DNA from: a virus
DNA: 31,903 bases
Reading direction: 5' to 3' (one strand)
Virus record (IMG/VR): IMGVR_UViG_3300046660_000245
Location: 1-31,903 of that record
Below the pieces are notes generated by a model. That model searched no databases, was not told the origin of the DNA, and saw only the letters and a list, made by a program, of their open reading frames with translations. The position numbers and the translations under genes are program-made. Every line of letters starts with the position of its first letter. The first letter of the stretch is position 1. Below are positions 1,260 to 26,512 of this stretch, in pieces.

Positions 1260-1485
1260 CAGCATCACCTTTCAGATTTTCTTGAGCAACAAAGCGAGAG
1301 ATAATGGCGCCACAGGTCACGAGCCCAGACAGGGCGGCGAAGATGCCGCGCGGGATCGTGACGACTTGATCGATGATCGGGAGGGCTATTTCACAGCCGG
1401 ACAAGATGCCGGCCACGGCGATCAACCGGATACTCCACGCGCGGCGAAGCACCCGGCCCGCCTCAGGGATGAGTTTCAGTTTCAT
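1246..1485 (-). CDS. Small membrane protein, probable holin
   Basis: This 79-aa protein has a basic, amphipathic N-terminus, two hydrophobic segments (about residues 17-35 and 44-63) and a charged C-terminal tail, with Cys31 and Cys58 in or near the membrane spans. It lies directly upstream of the endolysin and overlaps its start, the usual place for a holin, and resembles small holin-like proteins of rhizobial phages. Holins open the inner membrane, or depolarise it when they act as pinholins. The SAR-type endolysin next door would fit a pinholin, but that is inference. AAGGA seven bases before ATG 1485 supports the start. Size, topology and location carry the call. Confidence 0.66.
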   Translation of the reverse strand: MKLKLIPEAGRVLRRAWSIRLIAVAGILSGCEIALPIIDQVVTIPRGIFAALSGLVTCGAIISRFVAQENLKGDADADQ

Positions 1486-1549
1486 GGGGTGTCCTTGGGA
1501 TGTGGGCAGCGAAAGAGCGCACCGCCGCGAAGAGTTTCGCGTGGTCCAT
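1463..1549 (-). CDS. 28-codon ORF at head of lysis cassette, possible gene remnant
   Basis: A 28-codon frame begins at ATG 1549 with AAGGA about eight bases upstream and ends at TGA 1463-1465, overlapping the holin candidate's start by 23 nt in another frame. The first 16 or so residues (MDHAKLFAAVRSF and following) look like the start of peptidoglycan-hydrolase-type lysis proteins common in rhizobial phages. The rest looks out of frame. It may be a truncated gene whose ribosome site still helps translate the holin by coupling. That it is translated, and the family resemblance, are inference from the ribosome site and the N-terminal residues only. Confidence 0.33.
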   Translation of the reverse strand: MDHAKLFAAVRSFAAHIPRTPHETETHP

Positions 1550-17828: not shown

Positions 17829-19097
17829 CTACTTGCCGTTATCCGGCGCCGGATCTGGCTTTGGCTTTTTCGGCATGGTGCCGAAACCATCCGGCGTTTG
17901 AGCCGGCTGGATCTTCCCGAGCATTTCGAGAGGTACAAGGTTGGACTGCACCGTCAGGACATCGCCACCAGGCAATGGCGGATCGTTTTCCTTCTTGCGC
18001 AGCTCGTTGCGCGTCTTGAGGCCGTTCTGCGCCTGCACCGACATGATAGCGGCGCGGCCGGCACTGTCGGCGCGTAATAGGGCGTCAACATTGTGCTCGG
18101 CGTAGAATTTCAATCTGTCCGCCGGCGTCATCAGCTGCTTTTCAATCGCCTGCTCGGTACGCTGCATCTCAGGCCCGAGATACAAGGTCAGCCATGCGAG
18201 ATTGATCGACTCAACGCCGGTTCCCCACATAGTTTGACCTTGAGCGGCGTGGCCGATCAGAATCGGAAATGTCCCAAACCACCGGCAGATTTCCTCGACA
18301 TGGAAACCGCGCGTTTGCAGCAGCTGCGCATCTTCGGGATTAAGCCCCAGCGCCTTGAAGCTGAAGCCTGGCGGGAGCGGCATCACTTTGCCGGTGCGGC
18401 GAGATCCAGCAAACTTATCGAACAGCTCGACGATTTCCTCGCGCTGCTTCTGCGTGGTCTTGGCGCCAGGCATGTCCTCGGCGAAGCCCGAAACATGCAA
18501 GCCATCACCAAATGTACGACCCGCAACTTCGTCGGCGGCCAAGGCGGTTCCCAGCGTCTGCCGCCCAAATCCTATCGGCGACAGGCCCATCAGGCCACCA
18601 GCACCAAAACCGCGCAGGTGAAAGACCTTGTCTTCACCCCAATCATGGGAGCCGGTGATCGGATCGTTGTATCGGTAGCGCCTAGATCCGTCAGATGCAC
18701 GGTAAACCGAAGTCGAATCCGGGTTCATAGGATTGAGCGCAATCAGCGTTTCGCCGCTATAAACCTTCTCTGCATACGCGTTTCCGCGCAGATTGAGGCA
18801 GGTATACATGCCCTCCCAGAATTCCATGGCAGTCTGATCTGCATTCGGGCTGTCATGCAGGATCGAGTAAAGAGGATGATTATTATCAACCTCACCGGTT
18901 TTCGCGTCGTGGATCTTGATGGGTAGCGATGCCATCGTGCGCGAATTCAGACGAACGCATGCCCATGCCGTCGCCAGCTGCAAAACGGCATCCGGCGAGG
19001 TCGCCTTGCCGGACCATGTCGCATTGTCGACGTGCACAGATGCAGGATCTGTCAGCTTCACCTTACGGCGCCCGAGAATTCCGTCAAAAAAGCTCAT
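17829..19097 (-). CDS. Portal protein, HK97 family
   Basis: A 422-aa protein of normal length for HK97-type portals. Typical segments are ATAWACVRLNSRTMASLPIKI (near residues 43-63), PMNPDSTSVYRASDGSRRYRY (about 122-142), VFHLRGFGAGGLMGLSPIG (about 155-173) and a helix-rich C-terminal half with YLGPEMQRTEQAIEKQLM. It forms the dodecameric DNA channel and the docking point for terminase. The start overlaps the large terminase stop as ATGA. The last ~20 residues are Pro/Lys-rich and probably disordered. Identification is strong by pattern and order. Confidence 0.94.
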   Translation of the reverse strand: MSFFDGILGRRKVKLTDPASVHVDNATWSGKATSPDAVLQLATAWACVRLNSRTMASLPIKIHDAKTGEVDNNHPLYSILHDSPNADQTAMEFWEGMYTCLNLRGNAYAEKVYSGETLIALNPMNPDSTSVYRASDGSRRYRYNDPITGSHDWGEDKVFHLRGFGAGGLMGLSPIGFGRQTLGTALAADEVAGRTFGDGLHVSGFAEDMPGAKTTQKQREEIVELFDKFAGSRRTGKVMPLPPGFSFKALGLNPEDAQLLQTRGFHVEEICRWFGTFPILIGHAAQGQTMWGTGVESINLAWLTLYLGPEMQRTEQAIEKQLMTPADRLKFYAEHNVDALLRADSAGRAAIMSVQAQNGLKTRNELRKKENDPPLPGGDVLTVQSNLVPLEMLGKIQPAQTPDGFGTMPKKPKPDPAPDNGK

Positions 19098-20854
19098 GCT
19101 GACATCACCGGTTTCTTTAGGTATTCGTCGAGGTCTGGCACGAACTGGTCATCAGCCATGGAGAGCCCCACGGCCATGACGCTGGCAACAATGCCGTCGA
19201 TCTTCTCGGCCGACTTCTTTTTCGTCGGCGCATAGTTCAGGTTGTCGTCGAACTTGACGGCAGCGTTGCCCGCCATCCATCGCAAGACAGGATGGCCGCC
19301 GTGATCGAGCTTTCCGGACATAATGAGCCGCTCGAAAAGCTTCGTCGGCTCTCCCAGCGTCGGGATACCCTGGCGCATCTTGAGGAAGCGCTCTTCGTCG
19401 ACGCCGCCCTTCACCATATCGGTGTAGAGCTTGACCGCATTCCAAGGGTCGTAACCCATCAGATCGACGTCATATCGCTGTAGATCGTCCTCCAGCTGAT
19501 GCTGGACAAAGCTCTGATCGACATAATCGCCCGGCGTTGGCTCTATGGCGCCTATCTTCACCCAGTGATCATAGGAGATACGATCCCGCTTCGTGCGAAG
19601 TGGCGCTATTTCCTCCGGCACCCAGAATTTTGCCGAGAGGATCCAACGGTTGAAATCCTCATCTGGCGGAAAGGCCAGAATTCGTGCCGTGATGTCCTGG
19701 TTTGCCGATACGTCGAAAGCACTGAAGCACTTTCGGCCTTCTAACCCCTCGCCATCCCGCCATTTCTGCCAAATGGTCTTATCAGCAGCGCAGGCGTCCC
19801 ACTTCTTCAGGTTCAACCAGCGGACAACCGCGTCGATCCATTGGTTGGCGTGGTAGCAACGGAACTGCGCTTCGGCGCGAGGATTGTCCTTCGCTATCCC
19901 AGCTTCACGACGGAGAAACTGGAATGTCGGCGATATGCCGAGAGATGGATTTGCCTTCGGCCAATTGGCTTCGTCCGCCCAATCGTCATCCGGATCGAGC
20001 GCAAAAATGACGACCAACGTCGATGGATCGTCGGTTCGACCCTCAAGGATCGACTGGCTTTCCTCCCAAAGTGCCCATCCTGTCTTGTTCGACTTGACGC
20101 CGGCAGTCGATGCATAGAGCTCGATCGGCTCAAGGCGGGCGCCCGTACCCTGACGCAGGAAGTTAGCCAGGTCCGGCGTTTCCCACTCGTGCATTTCGTC
20201 GCCCGTTATCACGGTCGGCGATTTGCCGTGCTTTCCCTCAGCCTTGCCAGACAGCAGCTCGAATAGAGCGCGTATCTTCGGCAAGTAGATCGACTTCTTG
20301 AAGAGCTGCGCGTCGCCGAACTGCGGCGTCATGCCGATCATGGCCTTCATCTTATTGAAGATGATCTTCGCCTGGTTCTCATCACGGGCGAAGACATAGC
20401 CCTGCCCACCGACAACACCATCAACCGCGAAGAACAGCAGCGACAGGGCCGCCAGGAACTCCGATTTTCCGTTCTTGCGCGGCACCCACAACATGAGGCG
20501 CCGGAAGATCCGGACATGCACGACAATCAGCTCGCCGGTCTGTTCGTCGACGATCTCATTCGGCGCCTTCCACCCAACGAGCAGACGAACAATGATTTCC
20601 TGCCAGAGGCCAAGCTTGAACGGCTTGCCGGCGAAGCGATCCTCGGTCAGCCGAAAGATTGCGGGGAAGAGCTTTACCGCAGCGTCTGCCTTCGCGGCAT
20701 CGAACCATGCACCGGGAACCGTGCAGCACCGACGCCACGCGATGCGCGCCCATTCCCACCCACGCTTATCAGCCGCCTCAGAGACCCATTCCGGTTCCGG
20801 CCATAGCTGCGCGCCGGCAGAGGCCTGAATAGCCGTCGTCGATACACCGTCCAT
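19094..20854 (-). CDS. terL: Terminase large subunit
   Basis: The 586-aa protein has an ATPase domain with a Walker A-like PRKNGKS (125-131) and a Walker B region VITGDEMHEW (215-224, with Asp219-Glu220). A C-terminal nuclease domain follows, whose first acidic residue should be Asp381 in CFSAFDVSANQD (376-387). It belongs to the HK97-type Terminase_1 group. The enzyme pumps DNA into the prohead and cuts it into unit lengths. ATG 20854 lies just after the small terminase stop. The nearby HNH nuclease is consistent with cos-type packaging, although a cos site was not identified. Confidence 0.95.
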   Translation of the reverse strand: MDGVSTTAIQASAGAQLWPEPEWVSEAADKRGWEWARIAWRRCCTVPGAWFDAAKADAAVKLFPAIFRLTEDRFAGKPFKLGLWQEIIVRLLVGWKAPNEIVDEQTGELIVVHVRIFRRLMLWVPRKNGKSEFLAALSLLFFAVDGVVGGQGYVFARDENQAKIIFNKMKAMIGMTPQFGDAQLFKKSIYLPKIRALFELLSGKAEGKHGKSPTVITGDEMHEWETPDLANFLRQGTGARLEPIELYASTAGVKSNKTGWALWEESQSILEGRTDDPSTLVVIFALDPDDDWADEANWPKANPSLGISPTFQFLRREAGIAKDNPRAEAQFRCYHANQWIDAVVRWLNLKKWDACAADKTIWQKWRDGEGLEGRKCFSAFDVSANQDITARILAFPPDEDFNRWILSAKFWVPEEIAPLRTKRDRISYDHWVKIGAIEPTPGDYVDQSFVQHQLEDDLQRYDVDLMGYDPWNAVKLYTDMVKGGVDEERFLKMRQGIPTLGEPTKLFERLIMSGKLDHGGHPVLRWMAGNAAVKFDDNLNYAPTKKKSAEKIDGIVASVMAVGLSMADDQFVPDLDEYLKKPVMSA

Positions 20855-20857
20855 CGA

Positions 20858-21478
20858 TCAATTCGGACGGCTCGGCGGCGCGGAATCGAAGGTCTTCAGA
20901 ATGCCCATGACATCCTGCGGACCAGCGTCTGCTGTCGGCGATGGCTGCCGCTCGCCTGCGGGTGGCTGCTGATCGCCCCAGAGAGGCAGACCGTTGCCCA
21001 AGCCGTGCGCTGCGGCCTGGTCACGCATGATCTTGTAGCGTGCATCGGGCCGCATACCGAACGTTGCCTCAAGGTCGCGCAGCATCTTCTCGATGTCCTG
21101 GCAGGCTTGCCACGCCGGATGACGCTTTTTCGTCAGGTTGCCGTTCGTGTCTTTGGCTTCAAACCACGTCCCTTCTTTCTGGACGGTGATATCGGCGGCA
21201 ATCCACTCGACGATGTAGCGGCAGTACCGCGACAAAGGAGTGGCATCGAGATCGTTGAGCAGGTTCAAGCGTTCCAGTTTCGGCGCAAGATCGTTCCAGA
21301 TCTCTGTCGCCTTGCGGCTGCGCTTCAGCCACTTCGGCGGCCGAACCTTGCCGACCACGACAGGTGTCGGCGCCTTCGGCTCGCGGATCTTCTGCGCTAC
21401 CTGCGATGTCATGCGCTTTCCCGGCGCACCTTTTGCAGCCTGTTGCTCTGCCGTGTCGGGCTTGCGACCTCGTGCCAT
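20858..21478 (-). CDS. terS: Terminase small subunit, P27 family
   Basis: The 206-aa product begins MARGRKPDTAEQQAAKGAPG, a common start of P27-type small terminases. A helical core follows (about residues 48-130, with SRKATEIWNDLAPKLERLNLL and DLDATPLSRYCRYIVEW), then a Pro/Gln-rich C-terminal tail. It recognises phage DNA for packaging. A strong AGGAGG seven bases upstream of ATG 21478 decides the start over a 25-codon extension. The order HNH, TerS, TerL, portal is usual in HK97-type siphophages. Confidence 0.9.
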   Translation of the reverse strand: MARGRKPDTAEQQAAKGAPGKRMTSQVAQKIREPKAPTPVVVGKVRPPKWLKRSRKATEIWNDLAPKLERLNLLNDLDATPLSRYCRYIVEWIAADITVQKEGTWFEAKDTNGNLTKKRHPAWQACQDIEKMLRDLEATFGMRPDARYKIMRDQAAAHGLGNGLPLWGDQQPPAGERQPSPTADAGPQDVMGILKTFDSAPPSRPN

Positions 21479-21573
21479 CGTCCGCCCTCCTATTTGGCGA
21501 GAGAGAAAAAAATATTTCGGTAATTTCGCGGCGACGTGCGCGTGCACACCCACCGGTCTAGGCCCTCAGGCCT

Positions 21574-21897
21574 CTAGACTTTCGACCCGCCCCCAGGGGT
21601 GGCCCATCTGGCCTGATCGACCAGCGCATCAACGCGATGCGCGACCTCGCCCGATACATGCGAGTACCACGCGTGATCGACCTCGATGTGACCGCTCATG
21701 CCGCTGAGCATGATCTCATCACCACGGAAGCGGACCACATAGACGCGTGTGCGTCGGGCTACTTCGTCGCCTCGAAGATCAGCAACCATCCGCCTGACGT
21801 ACAGCTGATGGTGGCGCGAATAGGTGATGATGTGGCCGCCATCACTAGGTAGTCTCTCAACCATAGCCTTGGTCAGGCCGGTGCCGCGCTCAGTCAT
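21574..21897 (-). CDS. Unknown 107-aa protein between HNH and TerS
   Basis: The protein has a central beta-rich region (GGHIITYSRHHQLYVRRM, RVYVVRFRGDEIMLSG) and a C-terminal helix (GEVAHRVDALVDQARW). ATG 21897 overlaps the HNH stop as ATGA, so translation is likely coupled. That rejects a 26-codon upstream extension. It has no recognised domain. Its place between the HNH nuclease and small terminase suggests a role in packaging or its timing, but this is only context. Confidence 0.6.
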   Translation of the reverse strand: MTERGTGLTKAMVERLPSDGGHIITYSRHHQLYVRRMVADLRGDEVARRTRVYVVRFRGDEIMLSGMSGHIEVDHAWYSHVSGEVAHRVDALVDQARWATPGGGSKV

Positions 21898-22277
21898 CTT
21901 CCGCTCTTCTCTTCGGATTGCTTCACGATGTCGTGGTGGTCGGGGCACAGGGGCTGCCAATTCGACTGATCCCAAAACCGCACTGGATCGCCATGGTGGC
22001 GCTTGATGTGGTCGACCACCAGATGCATGCGCCGTGGATTACTCTGCAACTCACCTGCCATTGTCAGGTGACCCGCGTTCAGCAGGCCTGCCTGCTCACA
22101 TCGACGACAGAACTGATTGTCAGGCTGAGAAAGGAAGTCGGCACGTTCGCACTGCCAACGGTGGGTTTTATACCACTTACGCCAAGCCTGTTGATCACGC
22201 TCGCGATCATATTCACGCTCTCGCTGCTGGCTGGTTGGTGCGCCACGAAGGCGAAAGGACTTCGGCTTCGTGGCCAT
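21894..22277 (-). CDS. HNH endonuclease (packaging-associated)
   Basis: A 127-aa protein with a full HNH signature. Asp89-His90 in LVVDHIKRHHGD, Asn106 in QSNWQPL and His114/His115 in CPDHHD give the ββα-metal site. The Cys57-x2-Cys60 and Cys111-x2-His114 pairs suggest a structural zinc. The N-terminal 40 residues are highly basic. Small HNH proteins next to TerS/TerL are common in HK97-type cos phages, where they help terminase cut DNA at cos. It starts at ATG 22277 with no strong ribosome site and overlaps the following gene. A homing nuclease is less likely, given the size and the operon position. Confidence 0.88.
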   Translation of the reverse strand: MATKPKSFRLRGAPTSQQREREYDRERDQQAWRKWYKTHRWQCERADFLSQPDNQFCRRCEQAGLLNAGHLTMAGELQSNPRRMHLVVDHIKRHHGDPVRFWDQSNWQPLCPDHHDIVKQSEEKSGR

Positions 22278-22281
22278 ATTG

Positions 22282-22530
22282 TTATTCGACCGGCGTGAAG
22301 TCGACGAAGTAGGCCTTACCCTTTTCCAGCTTGTCGATCGCGGCGGGGTTGGTGATCGACATCTCGATCTTGCCTGACGGCGTATACTTCGACCAGCTCT
22401 CGTTGTCCTTGCCGTCGCCGTAGGTGCCGAAAACCGGCATCAACGTGACCATGGCATAGGGATCAGTTCCGGGCACTTCCGAATGTTTCACTTCGGCGAC
22501 GAAGAACTTTGCTCTTACCTGTACGCTCAT
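22282..22530 (-). CDS. Unknown 82-aa phage protein, first gene after terminator
   Basis: This short protein begins MSVQVRAKFFVAEVKH and is mostly beta strand, with KYTPSGKIEMSITNP (about residues 49-63) and AYFVDFTPVE at the end. Similar small proteins occur in many phages without known function. An OB-like nucleic-acid-binding fold is possible but not shown. AAGGAGAAG precedes ATG 22530, which rejects an eight-codon upstream extension. It is the first gene after the hairpin/terminator region and begins the packaging operon. Confidence 0.68.
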   Translation of the reverse strand: MSVQVRAKFFVAEVKHSEVPGTDPYAMVTLMPVFGTYGDGKDNESWSKYTPSGKIEMSITNPAAIDKLEKGKAYFVDFTPVE

Positions 22531-22546
22531 GCGTCTTCTCCTTTTG

Positions 22547-22564
22547 ATGGGCACGATTGCCCAT
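22547..22564 (-). other. Hairpin just upstream of first late-operon ribosome site
   Basis: On the minus strand ATGGGCA and TGCCCAT form a perfect 7-bp stem with an ATCG loop. It lies right upstream of the AAGGAGAAG site of the 82-aa gene and downstream of the intrinsic terminator. It could influence translation of the first late gene or be part of the structured leader. Confidence 0.55.
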
Positions 22565-22576
22565 ATCTATAGACGC

Positions 22577-22599
22577 AAAAAGGCGACCTATCGGCCGCC
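22577..22599 (-). terminator. Intrinsic terminator before packaging operon
   Basis: On the minus strand the 7-bp stem GGCGGCC/GGTCGCC (one G-T pair) with loop GATA is followed at once by TTTTT (22581-22577). It lies about 180 nt after the NusG-like gene and before the first packaging-operon gene, in the sense direction of both. Transcripts from the early operon must pass it to reach the structural genes. Confidence 0.78.
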
Positions 22600-22650
22600 C
22601 ATCATCATGCATTGGAGAAGTCATAGCTTTCGCACTGACCCTGAATCGAT

Positions 22651-22726
22651 ACCTCAGACTGAGGTCGTTAGGGCTGGGGCTGACCGGTGTACCAGCCTCG
22701 GGCTTATCGCCCCGCACTCTCGTGCG
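22651..22726 (-). ncRNA. Cluster of hairpins, possible cis-acting RNA
   Basis: Four inverted repeats follow one another on the minus strand: CGCAC-GAGA-GTGCG (22713-22726, with a GNRA-type loop), GGGC-GATAA-GCCC (22700-22712), GGCTG/CAGCC (22678-22697) and ACCTCAG-T-CTGAGGT (22651-22665). The spacing between them is small. The cluster ends about 50 nt before the intrinsic terminator and begins about 50 nt after the NusG-like stop. No ORF with a ribosome site fits this gap. The arrangement resembles put/polarity-relief elements, but no known RNA family was recognised. Confidence 0.5.
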
Positions 22727-22777
22727 TTCTCAGAGGTTCACTGCAGGATCATCAGCTTGTCCGTGAGCGATTAGTAC

Positions 22778-23437
22778 TCACACTTTCTCGATCTGAGCAA
22801 TATCTAATTCCACAGGCGTCTTCCTTCCGAAGATCTCCACATCCACGGTGATGCGATGCTTCTCCGCATCGATTGCGGTCACCTCTGCATCGAACGATGC
22901 AAATGGCCCGTCTGTCACTTTCACATGCTCACCCACATCATACGACATGCCGGTGATTGGGCGGTAATCATAGGATCCTCTCTGGGCGTGCTCTCTGAAT
23001 TTGTCGATATGTTTCAATGGTATCCGATAAGGTCGCTCAGCGCCGCCAACGATGCCTGTTACGTGCCTTACTTGTCTGAGAGCGAGGAACGCATGTGCGC
23101 TTGCTGCACACTGGACCAGCACATAACCCGGCATTACCGGCCGCCTTTTTGGCTCTATCATTCGGCCTCTGGAGTACTTGGGAGCGGATAGACATGTCGG
23201 AACAAGAGCCTCAACATTCTCTTCGTAGAGGTACTTTTCCACGGTGAATTCGCTGCCCGTCCTCACCGACAGGCAGTACCAAGGGCACATTTCGGGGTGG
23301 TCGGCGATGATTCGGCGGCTTGCCATCGCCAGATTGCTAATCCTGATTCGCTGCTCATCGGCGATCTTGTCGAGCTTGAGAAGCCCTTTGACTGACACTC
23401 GGCCTTCAAAGTCGCCACGCTTATGCTGCATCGTCAT
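22778..23437 (-). CDS. NusG-like (NGN + KOW) transcription antitermination protein
   Basis: The 219-aa product has an N-terminal extension of ~50 residues. An NGN domain follows (from CPWYCLSVRTGSEFTVEKYL at 51, through KRRPVMPGYVLVQ at 98-109, to about 150), then a KOW domain (about 165-219, with VGEHVKVTDGPFASFDAEV and GRKTPVELDIAQIEKV). NusG and RfaH-type proteins bind RNA polymerase and make it resist pausing or termination. This is the last gene of the early operon, just before the hairpins and terminator that guard the packaging operon, so it is a good candidate for the late-gene antiterminator. GAGG seven bases upstream of ATG 23437 supports the start. It overlaps the preceding gene by 17 nt. 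Confidence 0.88.
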   Translation of the reverse strand: MTMQHKRGDFEGRVSVKGLLKLDKIADEQRIRISNLAMASRRIIADHPEMCPWYCLSVRTGSEFTVEKYLYEENVEALVPTCLSAPKYSRGRMIEPKRRPVMPGYVLVQCAASAHAFLALRQVRHVTGIVGGAERPYRIPLKHIDKFREHAQRGSYDYRPITGMSYDVGEHVKVTDGPFASFDAEVTAIDAEKHRITVDVEIFGRKTPVELDIAQIEKV

Positions 23438-24623
23438 GGCCCGCCTCGCTGATTGTGGAGAGAAATGCCGTCAACGCATCCTCGACGGCCTGGTCTAGGT
23501 TGTCGGCGTTTTCGTCCACAGCCGGAAACCAAACGTACTCATTGGGAGACTCGATGAACGGCCAGCGGTGGCGGTCGTGCAGATCCGCCCATGCCACAAA
23601 TAGGGCGCTGTCACGCTCCACTTGGCGAAAGTCCGCCACGTTCGGGAGGAGCGCCAACGAGGTGACAAATGGGGCCTTACTGCGCGCTAGGTCGCGCATG
23701 GTGGTCACCAGCGGCCAACCGTGCTCAAGGCTCTTGCTGTGCAGCAGTGCCTCCCTAGTGGTCCTTCCATCCGCGATCTCCCGCTCGTCGAACGTGGTGA
23801 AGATGATGCGGCCCTTCGGCTCCCTGGAAAGCGCTGCTAGCCGCGTTCCCATCCAGAGCTTACCGCAGACCTTGGCAATGCCGCGTGTCGGCGCTGCCGT
23901 CACCTCTTCGGGCACATCGCGCCAATGGCGGTTCTTGAGGTAGACCGCAGCCGCCATGATGTCTTCCGGCTTCGCCCAGCGCAGATAGGCCGGGGTTCGC
24001 TCGACGCATTCGGCGCGCTCTTCCGGTGACAGTGCAAACCACGAATTTCGGGCGAAATCGACATCGCCCTTTTTCCAAGTGGCGTACCAGAGCGTGAAAT
24101 CGCGTTCGATCTTCTTTCGATCAGATCGCTTCAATCCTCCCTCTTCCGCGCCAGCGCTCGCTTGGTGGAGATCAGTATTTTTTAAGTAATCAGTATTTAC
24201 TAGTGTCGGATTCACCGGCGACGGCGGAACCGGCGACGGCATTGCCGTCGCCGGTAAATCCGTCTGCGGTAGAAATGCAACACTTTCGCGTTCGCTAACA
24301 TTTTCAGCGCTTTCGGCGTCGCGCGGCTCGTCAAAGATCACCAGCACGGATGCGCCGAACTTGCCGTCCGCGCGCTGCTGCTCGCGCTCTGCGTAACCGA
24401 ACTTCACCAGCTCGGCGACCATCCCACGCGCCTTGTCGCGGCCGCAGCCACCGCGCTTGCAGATGTCGCCAATGACGACGGTCCAGTTGTCAGGCTTCGA
24501 AAGCAGGTAGCTCAGGAGCCACCGCGCCTCCATGGAAAGCCGGCTATCCTCGAAGACGTGATTGGGAATGGCCGCATAGCGCGCATTGCGCACCGCGCGC
24601 CGTATGGTTGCTTCATGGCTCAT
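23421..24623 (-). CDS. Winged-helix replication-type protein
   Basis: The 400-aa protein begins with a winged-helix region (about residues 19-81: IPNHVFEDSRLSMEARWLLS, then WTVVIGDICKRGGCGRDKAR and ELVKFGYAERE), a form found in phage replication initiators and DnaD-like proteins. A Pro/Ser/Thr-rich linker (about 115-155) follows. A C-terminal part rich in Trp has FTLWYATWKKGDVDFARNSW and PAYLRWAKPEDIMAAAVYLK, which resembles the C-terminal region of phage replication proteins that load helicase. No origin was found. It starts at ATG 24623, overlapping the methyltransferase stop as ATGA. A role in replication fits the early operon but is not proven. Confidence 0.65.
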   Translation of the reverse strand: MSHEATIRRAVRNARYAAIPNHVFEDSRLSMEARWLLSYLLSKPDNWTVVIGDICKRGGCGRDKARGMVAELVKFGYAEREQQRADGKFGASVLVIFDEPRDAESAENVSERESVAFLPQTDLPATAMPSPVPPSPVNPTLVNTDYLKNTDLHQASAGAEEGGLKRSDRKKIERDFTLWYATWKKGDVDFARNSWFALSPEERAECVERTPAYLRWAKPEDIMAAAVYLKNRHWRDVPEEVTAAPTRGIAKVCGKLWMGTRLAALSREPKGRIIFTTFDEREIADGRTTREALLHSKSLEHGWPLVTTMRDLARSKAPFVTSLALLPNVADFRQVERDSALFVAWADLHDRHRWPFIESPNEYVWFPAVDENADNLDQAVEDALTAFLSTISEAGHDDAA

Positions 24624-26512
24624 GCCGCCATCCTTTCCGGCACTGCCATGTGATTGCAGTTGGCGGCGACCAGTGCGGCGGCAACGGGCGGCGATACGCT
24701 ATTGCCGACGCATAACACCTGCACCGACTTCGAGAAGAAATTCCCGTTCACATCGCGATCGATGACGTAATTCCGGGGAAAACCCTGCGCGTTGTAGAGT
24801 TCTCGCGGCGTCAGCATCCGCATGCCAATGTCGACGATAACGAAGGTGACGCCGTCGATCTCGACGGTGACGAACTCGCGATCATCCCAAAGACCATGTG
24901 AGCGCATGAAGTCCGCTACCTGGCGCGCACGAACCGCCTGCGCCTCCGTGAAGGGCGGCACGCCTATCACGGCCTCGACATGACCGAACCTGTCTCTGGT
25001 CGTCACCGTGCGGCATGGCTCGTCCTCGCAACCGCCATCCCCTATCCCGTAGTAAGACTGCAAATATGGCATCACCAACTGACTCTTGCCCTGCCCGTCC
25101 GCCATGATGGTGCCTGACGGCACGTCGATCGCATGACCGGTCGAAGTGCCGAACTGGCGCGCAACATAGGCTGAGACCAATTGCTGATGGCTACCGCTCT
25201 GCGTAATGGTCGACGCGGCCTCGTCCATCGGCCTACCCGGATTGACGCCTCCTACGCGGCGACTGTCGTTGTTGTGCTGGGCCATGAAGGCACACAGGAC
25301 CGCGTTCTGATCCTTGTCGCTGGCCGTTATCGTGTGGGCCTGTCCGTCGACCGGTCGGCATGACCCGCCCTGCTGCGCATAGGTCAAAACTGGCGCCAGT
25401 AGGCCGAGAGGGGCGGCGCCACCTGGTCGCTTGATGAAGCTGTTGGCTGTGATCGTCGGCATCTGGCCGCGCATGTCGACGCCCGTAGCGCCCGAATTGA
25501 AGCGCTGGATCGATGGTGCAACGAGCGCCTTCTCGCCACGGTGCGCCGCAGTGATCACCCTTGCCGGTTCCGCGATATCTTCCAGGCGGCCGCCATGCGT
25601 CAGATTGACAAGGAATGGTCGCTTCGCTCTGATGACGAACCTATCCATGCCGCGAGCGATCCGGGCATGAGAGTTGACTGCCAACGGCCGCACAGCCCGA
25701 ACGCCATGCTTTTCCCATATCTCTTCTGCCGTATCGAAGATCGAGGGGCATGCGATGCTCCAATCGATGCAATCGGCCACGATCCGCCACGCCTTCTTAC
25801 GCCCGGCTATCACGTCCGCATCGTCCGGAGCGCCGTGGGTAGGTTTCGGCCAGACGATCTTCAGGCCATCGAATCGGACGATGACGAACAGGCGCTTGCG
25901 GATGGTCGGCGCACCATAATCACGGGCGCGAAGCTCGCGCTTTTCGATCTTGCCGCCAAGCTTGCGCAGCTCTTTGCACCACTTCTGGAACGTCTCGCCC
26001 TTGCGCTCCGGATCGGGCATCAATCCTCGCTCCGTCTCGACGAGTGGCCCCCAATATTGGAATTCCTCGACATTCTCCATGATGATCACGTCGAGCTTAC
26101 CGCCGCTCTTCTGGATGCGTTCGACCCAATGGACGATGGTCCAAGCCAGGTCGCGGATATTACGCTCGACAGGCTTTCCGCCCTTGGCCTTGGAAAAGTG
26201 CTTGCAGTCCGGAGAGAACCAGCCGAGGCCGATATGTTCGCCGGCCAGATGGTCCAGCGGATCTACCTTGTAGATATTTTCCGAAAGGTGGATGGTCTCC
26301 GGATGGTTGACCTCGTGCAGCGCCAATGCGGGCTTGCTATGGTTCAGCGCATAATCCGGCGACCGCCCGAGAGCTTGCCTGATACCTTCGGATGCACCGC
26401 CGCCGCCGGCGAAATTATCGATGATCTTGCGCAAATGCGGCGCGATATCGCTTCCGTAGATCGGCGCGGTGCTGGACGCCATGAGGCTGTCGAAAAGCTG
26501 TTCGGTGTACAT
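24620..26512 (-). CDS. DNA cytosine-5 methyltransferase (orphan)
   Basis: A 630-aa C5-type enzyme. Motif I is DNFAGGGGASEG (32-43). The catalytic loop reads SPDCKHFS (100-107) with Cys103, a Pro-Asp-Cys variant of the usual Pro-Cys. ENV (146-148) is motif VI, and PTIRKRLFVI (202-211) matches the QxRxR motif. Motif IX-like RELYNAQGFPRNY and motif X GNSVSPPVAAALVAAN lie near the end, so the target-recognition region between about 260 and 570 is unusually long. The enzyme uses SAM to make m5C. No restriction enzyme is encoded nearby, so it likely protects phage DNA from host nucleases. It starts at ATG 26512 directly at the preceding stop. Confidence 0.92.
   Translation of the reverse strand: MYTEQLFDSLMASSTAPIYGSDIAPHLRKIIDNFAGGGGASEGIRQALGRSPDYALNHSKPALALHEVNHPETIHLSENIYKVDPLDHLAGEHIGLGWFSPDCKHFSKAKGGKPVERNIRDLAWTIVHWVERIQKSGGKLDVIIMENVEEFQYWGPLVETERGLMPDPERKGETFQKWCKELRKLGGKIEKRELRARDYGAPTIRKRLFVIVRFDGLKIVWPKPTHGAPDDADVIAGRKKAWRIVADCIDWSIACPSIFDTAEEIWEKHGVRAVRPLAVNSHARIARGMDRFVIRAKRPFLVNLTHGGRLEDIAEPARVITAAHRGEKALVAPSIQRFNSGATGVDMRGQMPTITANSFIKRPGGAAPLGLLAPVLTYAQQGGSCRPVDGQAHTITASDKDQNAVLCAFMAQHNNDSRRVGGVNPGRPMDEAASTITQSGSHQQLVSAYVARQFGTSTGHAIDVPSGTIMADGQGKSQLVMPYLQSYYGIGDGGCEDEPCRTVTTRDRFGHVEAVIGVPPFTEAQAVRARQVADFMRSHGLWDDREFVTVEIDGVTFVIVDIGMRMLTPRELYNAQGFPRNYVIDRDVNGNFFSKSVQVLCVGNSVSPPVAAALVAANCNHMAVPERMAA

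Follow-up and report, generated by a model that had tools for sequence, protein, structure and literature searches.

A structured leader RNA beside a NusG-like gene in rhizobial phages: a candidate switch to late transcription

Phages are known to turn on their late genes mainly through Q or N antiterminators, sigma factors or phage polymerases. Among the paralogues of NusG, RfaH reads the non-template DNA strand at ops and has a C-terminal domain that switches fold. Closer to the locus described here are two systems in which polymerase is modified through a nascent RNA: LoaP of Bacillus velezensis, a NusG paralogue requiring a hairpin in the dfn/mln leader for read-through of an intrinsic terminator (PMC12691694), and the put RNA of phage HK022, which acts on the polymerase by itself (PMC9378689).

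The DNA analysed (the window) is the whole of the 31,903-base virus record IMGVR_UViG_3300046660_000245. Genes for DNA methyltransferases and a replication initiator on its minus strand are followed by a NusG-like gene, a gap, a short ORF and genes for an HNH endonuclease, terminases, portal and protease, with the head and tail genes located downstream of the terminase genes (table 1). The gap extends 247 nt from the NusG-like gene to the first likely start codon and, as a preliminary description had stated, contains no supported gene. It encodes a conserved structured RNA comprising a long-range helix (P1) around a variable domain, two further helical elements (P2 and P3) and then an intrinsic terminator. 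The element is present as one copy per phage, at the early/late border.

Table 1. Coordinates of the NusG-like gene, the RNA element and the start of the late operon in the window
Feature	Position	Strand	Description
NusG-like gene	22778..23437	-	219 aa; N-terminal helical extension, NGN domain and KOW domain
P1 5' arm	22752..22762	-	GG 22762-22761, 4-nt bulge ACAA 22760-22757, GCUGA 22756-22752; partner 22683-22677
Variable domain inside P1	22684..22751	-	From aligned subgroups and MFE; contains hairpins 22713-22726 and 22700-22712
P1 3' arm	22677..22683	-	UCAGC 22683-22679 and CC 22678-22677
P2	22638..22674	-	Compensatory changes, covariation, covariance model R1
P2a, outer stem	22674-22668 with 22644-22638	-	
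P2b, inner stem	22665-22661 with 22655-22651	-	ACCUC with GAGGU
P3 hairpin	22621..22636	-	Near-invariant AGUGC-GAAA-GCUAUGA
Intrinsic terminator	22577..22600	-	GGGCGGCC-GATA-GGTCGCC-TTTTT; ranked first in the terminator list for 20500-25500
Late operon, first ORF	22282..22530	-	Probable start ATG 22530 after AAAGGAGAAG; phrog_6978, function unknown
HNH endonuclease gene	21894..22277	-	phrog_2323, 1e-16
Terminase genes, start of head/tail operon	19094..21553	-	Small subunit 20858-21553, large subunit 19094-20854

Structure and covariation of the leader RNA

In folding energy the gap does not stand out (z = -1.35; an equally stable fold is reached by 18 of 200 shuffles), so that a list of hairpins alone could not carry the case, and MFE folding was rejected as evidence for an RNA element because it is not significant. 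The four leader stem-loops named in the preliminary description are all part of the MFE fold but fared differently. The hairpin at 22651-22665 is P2b and has compensatory changes and covariation, whereas those at 22713-22726 and 22700-22712 are local, non-conserved structures within the variable domain, which is far shorter in one aligned subgroup. The fourth, at 22678-22697, is contradicted by the evolutionary evidence, which favours P1, in which its 3' arm UCAGC (22683-22679) pairs with GCUGA (22756-22752). A further hairpin, claimed to have 7 bp at 22547-22564, has 6 bp, overlaps an ATG and does not recur in aligned relatives. The earlier anatomy thus stands for P2b and the terminator but not for most of the named hairpins, and it missed P1, P2a and P3, which are the best-conserved parts.

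Relatives were collected with a four-member protein alignment and a DNA pattern derived from the RNA core. Four GenBank phages show blastn similarity in the gap DNA itself. Phages retrieved with only the NusG-like protein as query, at about 30-67% identity, have a conserved block downstream of the NusG-like gene consisting of P2, then P3 and usually a terminator.

The consensus of P1 is GG-(4 nt)-NNNNN just after the NusG stop codon, pairing with NNNNN-CC before P2. Allowing a one-base offset, five perfect base pairs are present in 68 of 80 unique sequences and four in the other 12 (at a fixed offset, 65 of 80 are perfect), despite about 40 different sequence pairs for the two arms among the 80 phages. 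When partners are swapped between phages, five base pairs form in only 6.7% of cases, and the observed total is not equalled in any of 2000 permutations. Double changes occur in P2b, C-G/U-A among them, and in P2a 12 of 45 have a C-G/U-A change. The internal loop of P2 is asymmetric with a conserved GA. In our own covariation test, which, much as R-scape does, places substitutions anew over the tree (40 simulations), the top five covarying column pairs comprise three from P1, one from P2b and one from P2a (E 0 to 0.23). Conservation and covariation in relatives, which the preliminary description had made a check on its reading, are therefore both found, and strongly in P1 and P2. From these alignments we propose three helices in the leader, two of which (P1 and P2) covary.

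P3 reads AGUGC-NANN-GCUAUG in near-invariant form across relatives, and because it hardly varies, its pairing is proposed rather than proven. Its conservation in loci selected by the DNA pattern is partly a matter of construction; P3 is likewise present in loci selected by the NusG protein and by the covariance model, both of which bypassed that pattern.

The loop of P3 (22628-22631 in the window) alternates between GNNA and YACN (N other than G) with nearly fixed flanking bases, which suggests two interchangeable tetraloop shapes. Loop class was considered as a marker of protein specificity and rejected, since the NusG tree implies about 19 changes of class, 12 or more of them on well-supported branches, and the class is thus no clean marker. 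By nearest-neighbour energies, the MFE is favoured over the P1 fold of the window by about 8 kcal/mol, and the region of the P1 3' arm (22679-22697) can instead form the local hairpin described above. The two are mutually exclusive and could constitute a folding switch.

The terminator and the genes behind it

A GC stem followed by TTTTT had been noted at 22577-22599, and this is indeed a strong intrinsic terminator (22600-22577). Of 89 unique elements, 74 have a terminator by automatic search no more than 100 nt behind P3, as against 5.2% of shuffles, and several of the remaining elements have one that is readable further on. Four (L098, L177, L180 and L185) are apparently without a terminator after P3; in these, either the RNA serves without gating or transcription is terminated in another way. 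The terminator stems vary by clade (GGCGGCC, GCCCGGT, GAGCGCC and others), and it is therefore the terminator as such that is retained.

Individual loci differ in what follows P3. An HNH-like reading frame begins almost immediately after it in L177, L180 and L185, and the downstream region is also different in L014. An opposite-strand ORF of 94 aa, resembling an inserted accessory gene, lies between P3 and the HNH gene of L147 (3862-4146, minus strand), and the prophage leader of L169 has a tRNA-Met gene (CAT anticodon; 1417-1493, minus strand) between P3 and the terminator, with terminator and start codon coming after.

The commonest distance from the terminator stem to the next start codon in relatives is 17 nt, though the downstream genes are of several unrelated types; the probable start in the window is farther away than this. 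Such spacing leaves no room for a promoter in the relatives, and no sigma70-like promoter was matched in 20500-25500 of the window by a scan that covers other promoter types poorly. The strong downstream promoter that would have spoken against the preliminary description was accordingly not encountered, and transcription started upstream must cross the terminator to reach the late genes. The terminator might simply close an operon, with a separate late promoter nearby. This would be a familiar arrangement, inter-operon terminators being common, and the weakness of the scan for other promoter types leans towards it; given the covariation across the whole leader, the lack of room between terminator and start codon in relatives and the lack of a promoter-like match, we consider it highly improbable. 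Viewed from the NusG-like gene, the RNA is part of a 3' UTR that a terminator closes, and bacteria do have 3'-UTR elements (PMC2864571). It might then regulate or stabilise the NusG-like message (feedback or retroregulation) or yield a small RNA, with the late genes switched otherwise. This is very unlikely in our view, because the distance from terminator to start codon is held, most often at 17 nt, even before unrelated genes and the terminator is therefore tied to the gene downstream.

The NusG-like protein and its linkage to the RNA

The NusG-like protein is matched by the Pfam profiles NusG (2.6e-16) and KOW (5.4e-05), both above cut-off, and by the transcription antiterminator family phrog_6386 (1.2e-45). 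Pfam, the AF2 fold (pLDDT 88.9) and PDB matches all give the NGN domain followed by a KOW domain that defines the NusG/Spt5 family. Among PDB folds, NusG and RfaH come nearest to the model (Z about 10); 8f5g, whose title names a NusG-RNA complex and which is presumably the structure of LoaP with the dfn/mln leader hairpin, scores Z 8.8. By sequence the protein is nearest to NusG, and closer to it than to 8f5g. Only NusG and antiterminator families are matched in Pfam and PHROG, and the Q family is not among them. The structural comparison covered proteins from the window and from viral and genome loci. The first 17 bases of the NusG-like gene (23421-23437) are shared with the end of the replication-initiator gene, and the N-terminal MTMQHKRG is common to closer relatives, perhaps owing to this overlap.

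In its KOW domain, including GPFA-F, the protein closely resembles E. coli and housekeeping NusG. The C-terminal domain of E. coli NusG binds Rho or S10, and housekeeping NusG can also promote Rho termination. The NusG-like protein might by the same token bind the leader and promote pausing or termination, holding the late genes off, or couple them to Rho or ribosomes. This opposite effect appears unlikely, as a phage would less plausibly encode an early repressor against its own virion genes and the paralogue gene lies just upstream of the operon, as with loaP and other target-activating paralogues (PMC7819879).

The linkage between the RNA and the phage NusG-like gene is nearly absolute. The DNA pattern of the RNA core hits at least 119 stretches of viral contigs; among the matches listed, every full element with enough upstream DNA has a NusG-like gene on the same strand, and pattern matches without the stem have none. 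Of 150 loci collected, 129 have a NusG-like match and 128 of these the element, the one not counted having too little downstream DNA to judge. A covariance model of P2 plus P3 (R1) scores 76 bits in the window with no second copy, and matches 31 of 298 Rhizobiaceae genomes sampled. Wider samples at order, class and phylum level add one copy that is already among the 31, plus chance-level matches. Every fetched R1 match of at least 36.9 bits lies immediately downstream of a NusG-like gene (E <= 1e-26). Five genomes together contain ten NusG genes of the phage type and an equal number of RNA copies, ten, whereas their five housekeeping host NusG genes (about 127-132 bits) have none. Linkage could come about through inheritance of RNA and gene as one module. 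Five R1 matches of 23-26 bits in other bacteria (L153-L157) were rejected, having poor alignments and no NusG-like gene nearby.

This linkage bears on whether the RNA might act by itself. A leader that makes polymerase terminator-resistant without a phage protein, the NusG-like protein doing something else or only helping, has a precedent in the solitary action of the HK022 RNA, and the RNA here is larger and more conserved than a simple protein-binding hairpin needs to be. We nevertheless find it unlikely, because association with the NusG-like gene is so close, because an RNA for constitutive read-through would make little sense before a conserved terminator unless some other input were involved, and because a search of the HK022 genome with R1 gave no match at E up to 10. 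Homology to HK022 put, which the preliminary description had cited as background, is not supported by this last result.

The RNA and terminator are carried by many phages of root-nodule and related soil bacteria, and the RNA is a specific marker of this prophage group. The full module is also present in a phage annotated as infecting Nostoc (Nsp-JY10, PP395642.1; L004); strong matches in the genome samples are all from Rhizobiaceae, and the host label may be wrong. Rfam 15 gives no match at the gathering score in the window or seven relatives and only chance-level matches in permissive mode. No description of a phage NusG-RNA late switch was found in the searchable literature, a coverage mostly outside subscription journals, and no such motif is mentioned in the passages retrieved from a survey of 104 candidate RNAs. 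The leader switch thus looks like one not previously described.

Proposed late switch and comparison with known systems

We consider it probable that the phage NusG paralogue is brought to polymerase by the leader RNA, and that polymerase thereby gets past the terminator and on to the late genes, a reading that draws on the observed RNA, covariation, linkage and terminator placement, on the modelled NusG fold and on analogy with LoaP. Transcription arriving from the upstream replication region would traverse the NusG-like gene, enter the leader and, as long as the NusG-like protein is lacking, stop at the terminator. Once accumulated, the protein would recognise the folded RNA (P1, P2 and P3) and bind the elongating polymerase via its NGN domain, and polymerase so equipped would read through into the packaging, head and tail genes. 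The putative RNA partner or loading site before the late-operon terminator that had been put forward in the preliminary description therefore persists through the conservation and promoter checks, though without most of its named hairpins.

In favour of RNA-dependent loading are the covariation of P1 and P2, the linkage, the terminator after P3, the 17-nt spacing to the start codon, the lack of a promoter match, the single copy per phage at the early/late border, the NusG fold and the LoaP precedent; against it are the four elements without a nearby terminator, the less stable P1 fold, the lack of an internal terminator excess and the closeness of the KOW domain to housekeeping NusG. The protein presumably causes read-through rather than more termination, and its effect may be processive over the 22 kb of late genes; terminators inside the late operon are in no excess over shuffles, so that processivity is unsupported from that side.

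It is also fairly likely that this represents a widespread phage late switch and a new RNA family, in which a NusG paralogue works with a large cis-acting RNA dedicated to it, polymerase becoming terminator-resistant through RNA-loaded NusG rather than through N, Q, put or a sigma factor. If so, it adds a mechanism to phage late switching, and provides dozens of natural protein-RNA variant pairs for studying how NusG recognises RNA on the elongation complex.

The proposal shares with lambda Q and N the idea that a phage protein lets polymerase pass a terminator and so reach the genes of the following temporal class, and Q likewise acts next to its own gene. The protein here is instead of the NusG family, and the locus has no promoter-bound Q site that we could find and no visible boxA/boxB-type element. 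RfaH is similarly a NusG paralogue that modifies polymerase on selected operons, but the conserved site here is an RNA structure, direct reading of the leader revealing no GGCGGTAG of the ops type, and the KOW/C-terminal domain is predicted by AF2 to be a beta-barrel, where the fold-switching domain of RfaH is an alpha-helical hairpin in the free protein. The put RNA of HK022 is, like the leader, a cis-acting nascent phage RNA of several stems, and a similar disregard of terminators by polymerase is proposed for the leader; put differs in needing no phage protein and in sitting in early operons.

The closest parallel is LoaP, to which we propose that the phage system is functionally alike. In both, the gene for a NusG paralogue adjoins a long target operon, and a leader RNA structure precedes an intrinsic terminator, with read-through proposed for the phage. 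The P3 loop counts include no UNCG-type tetraloop such as that of the LoaP/dfn hairpin. Because this hairpin is absent, and because we infer the protein-RNA binding, we do not file the phage system as a member of the LoaP/dfn class. It further differs in belonging to phages of Rhizobiaceae, in its much larger RNA, with three helices plus a variable domain, and in a protein that is closer in sequence to NusG than to that of 8f5g. Should the proposed mechanism be correct, it would be an alpha-proteobacterial counterpart to LoaP.
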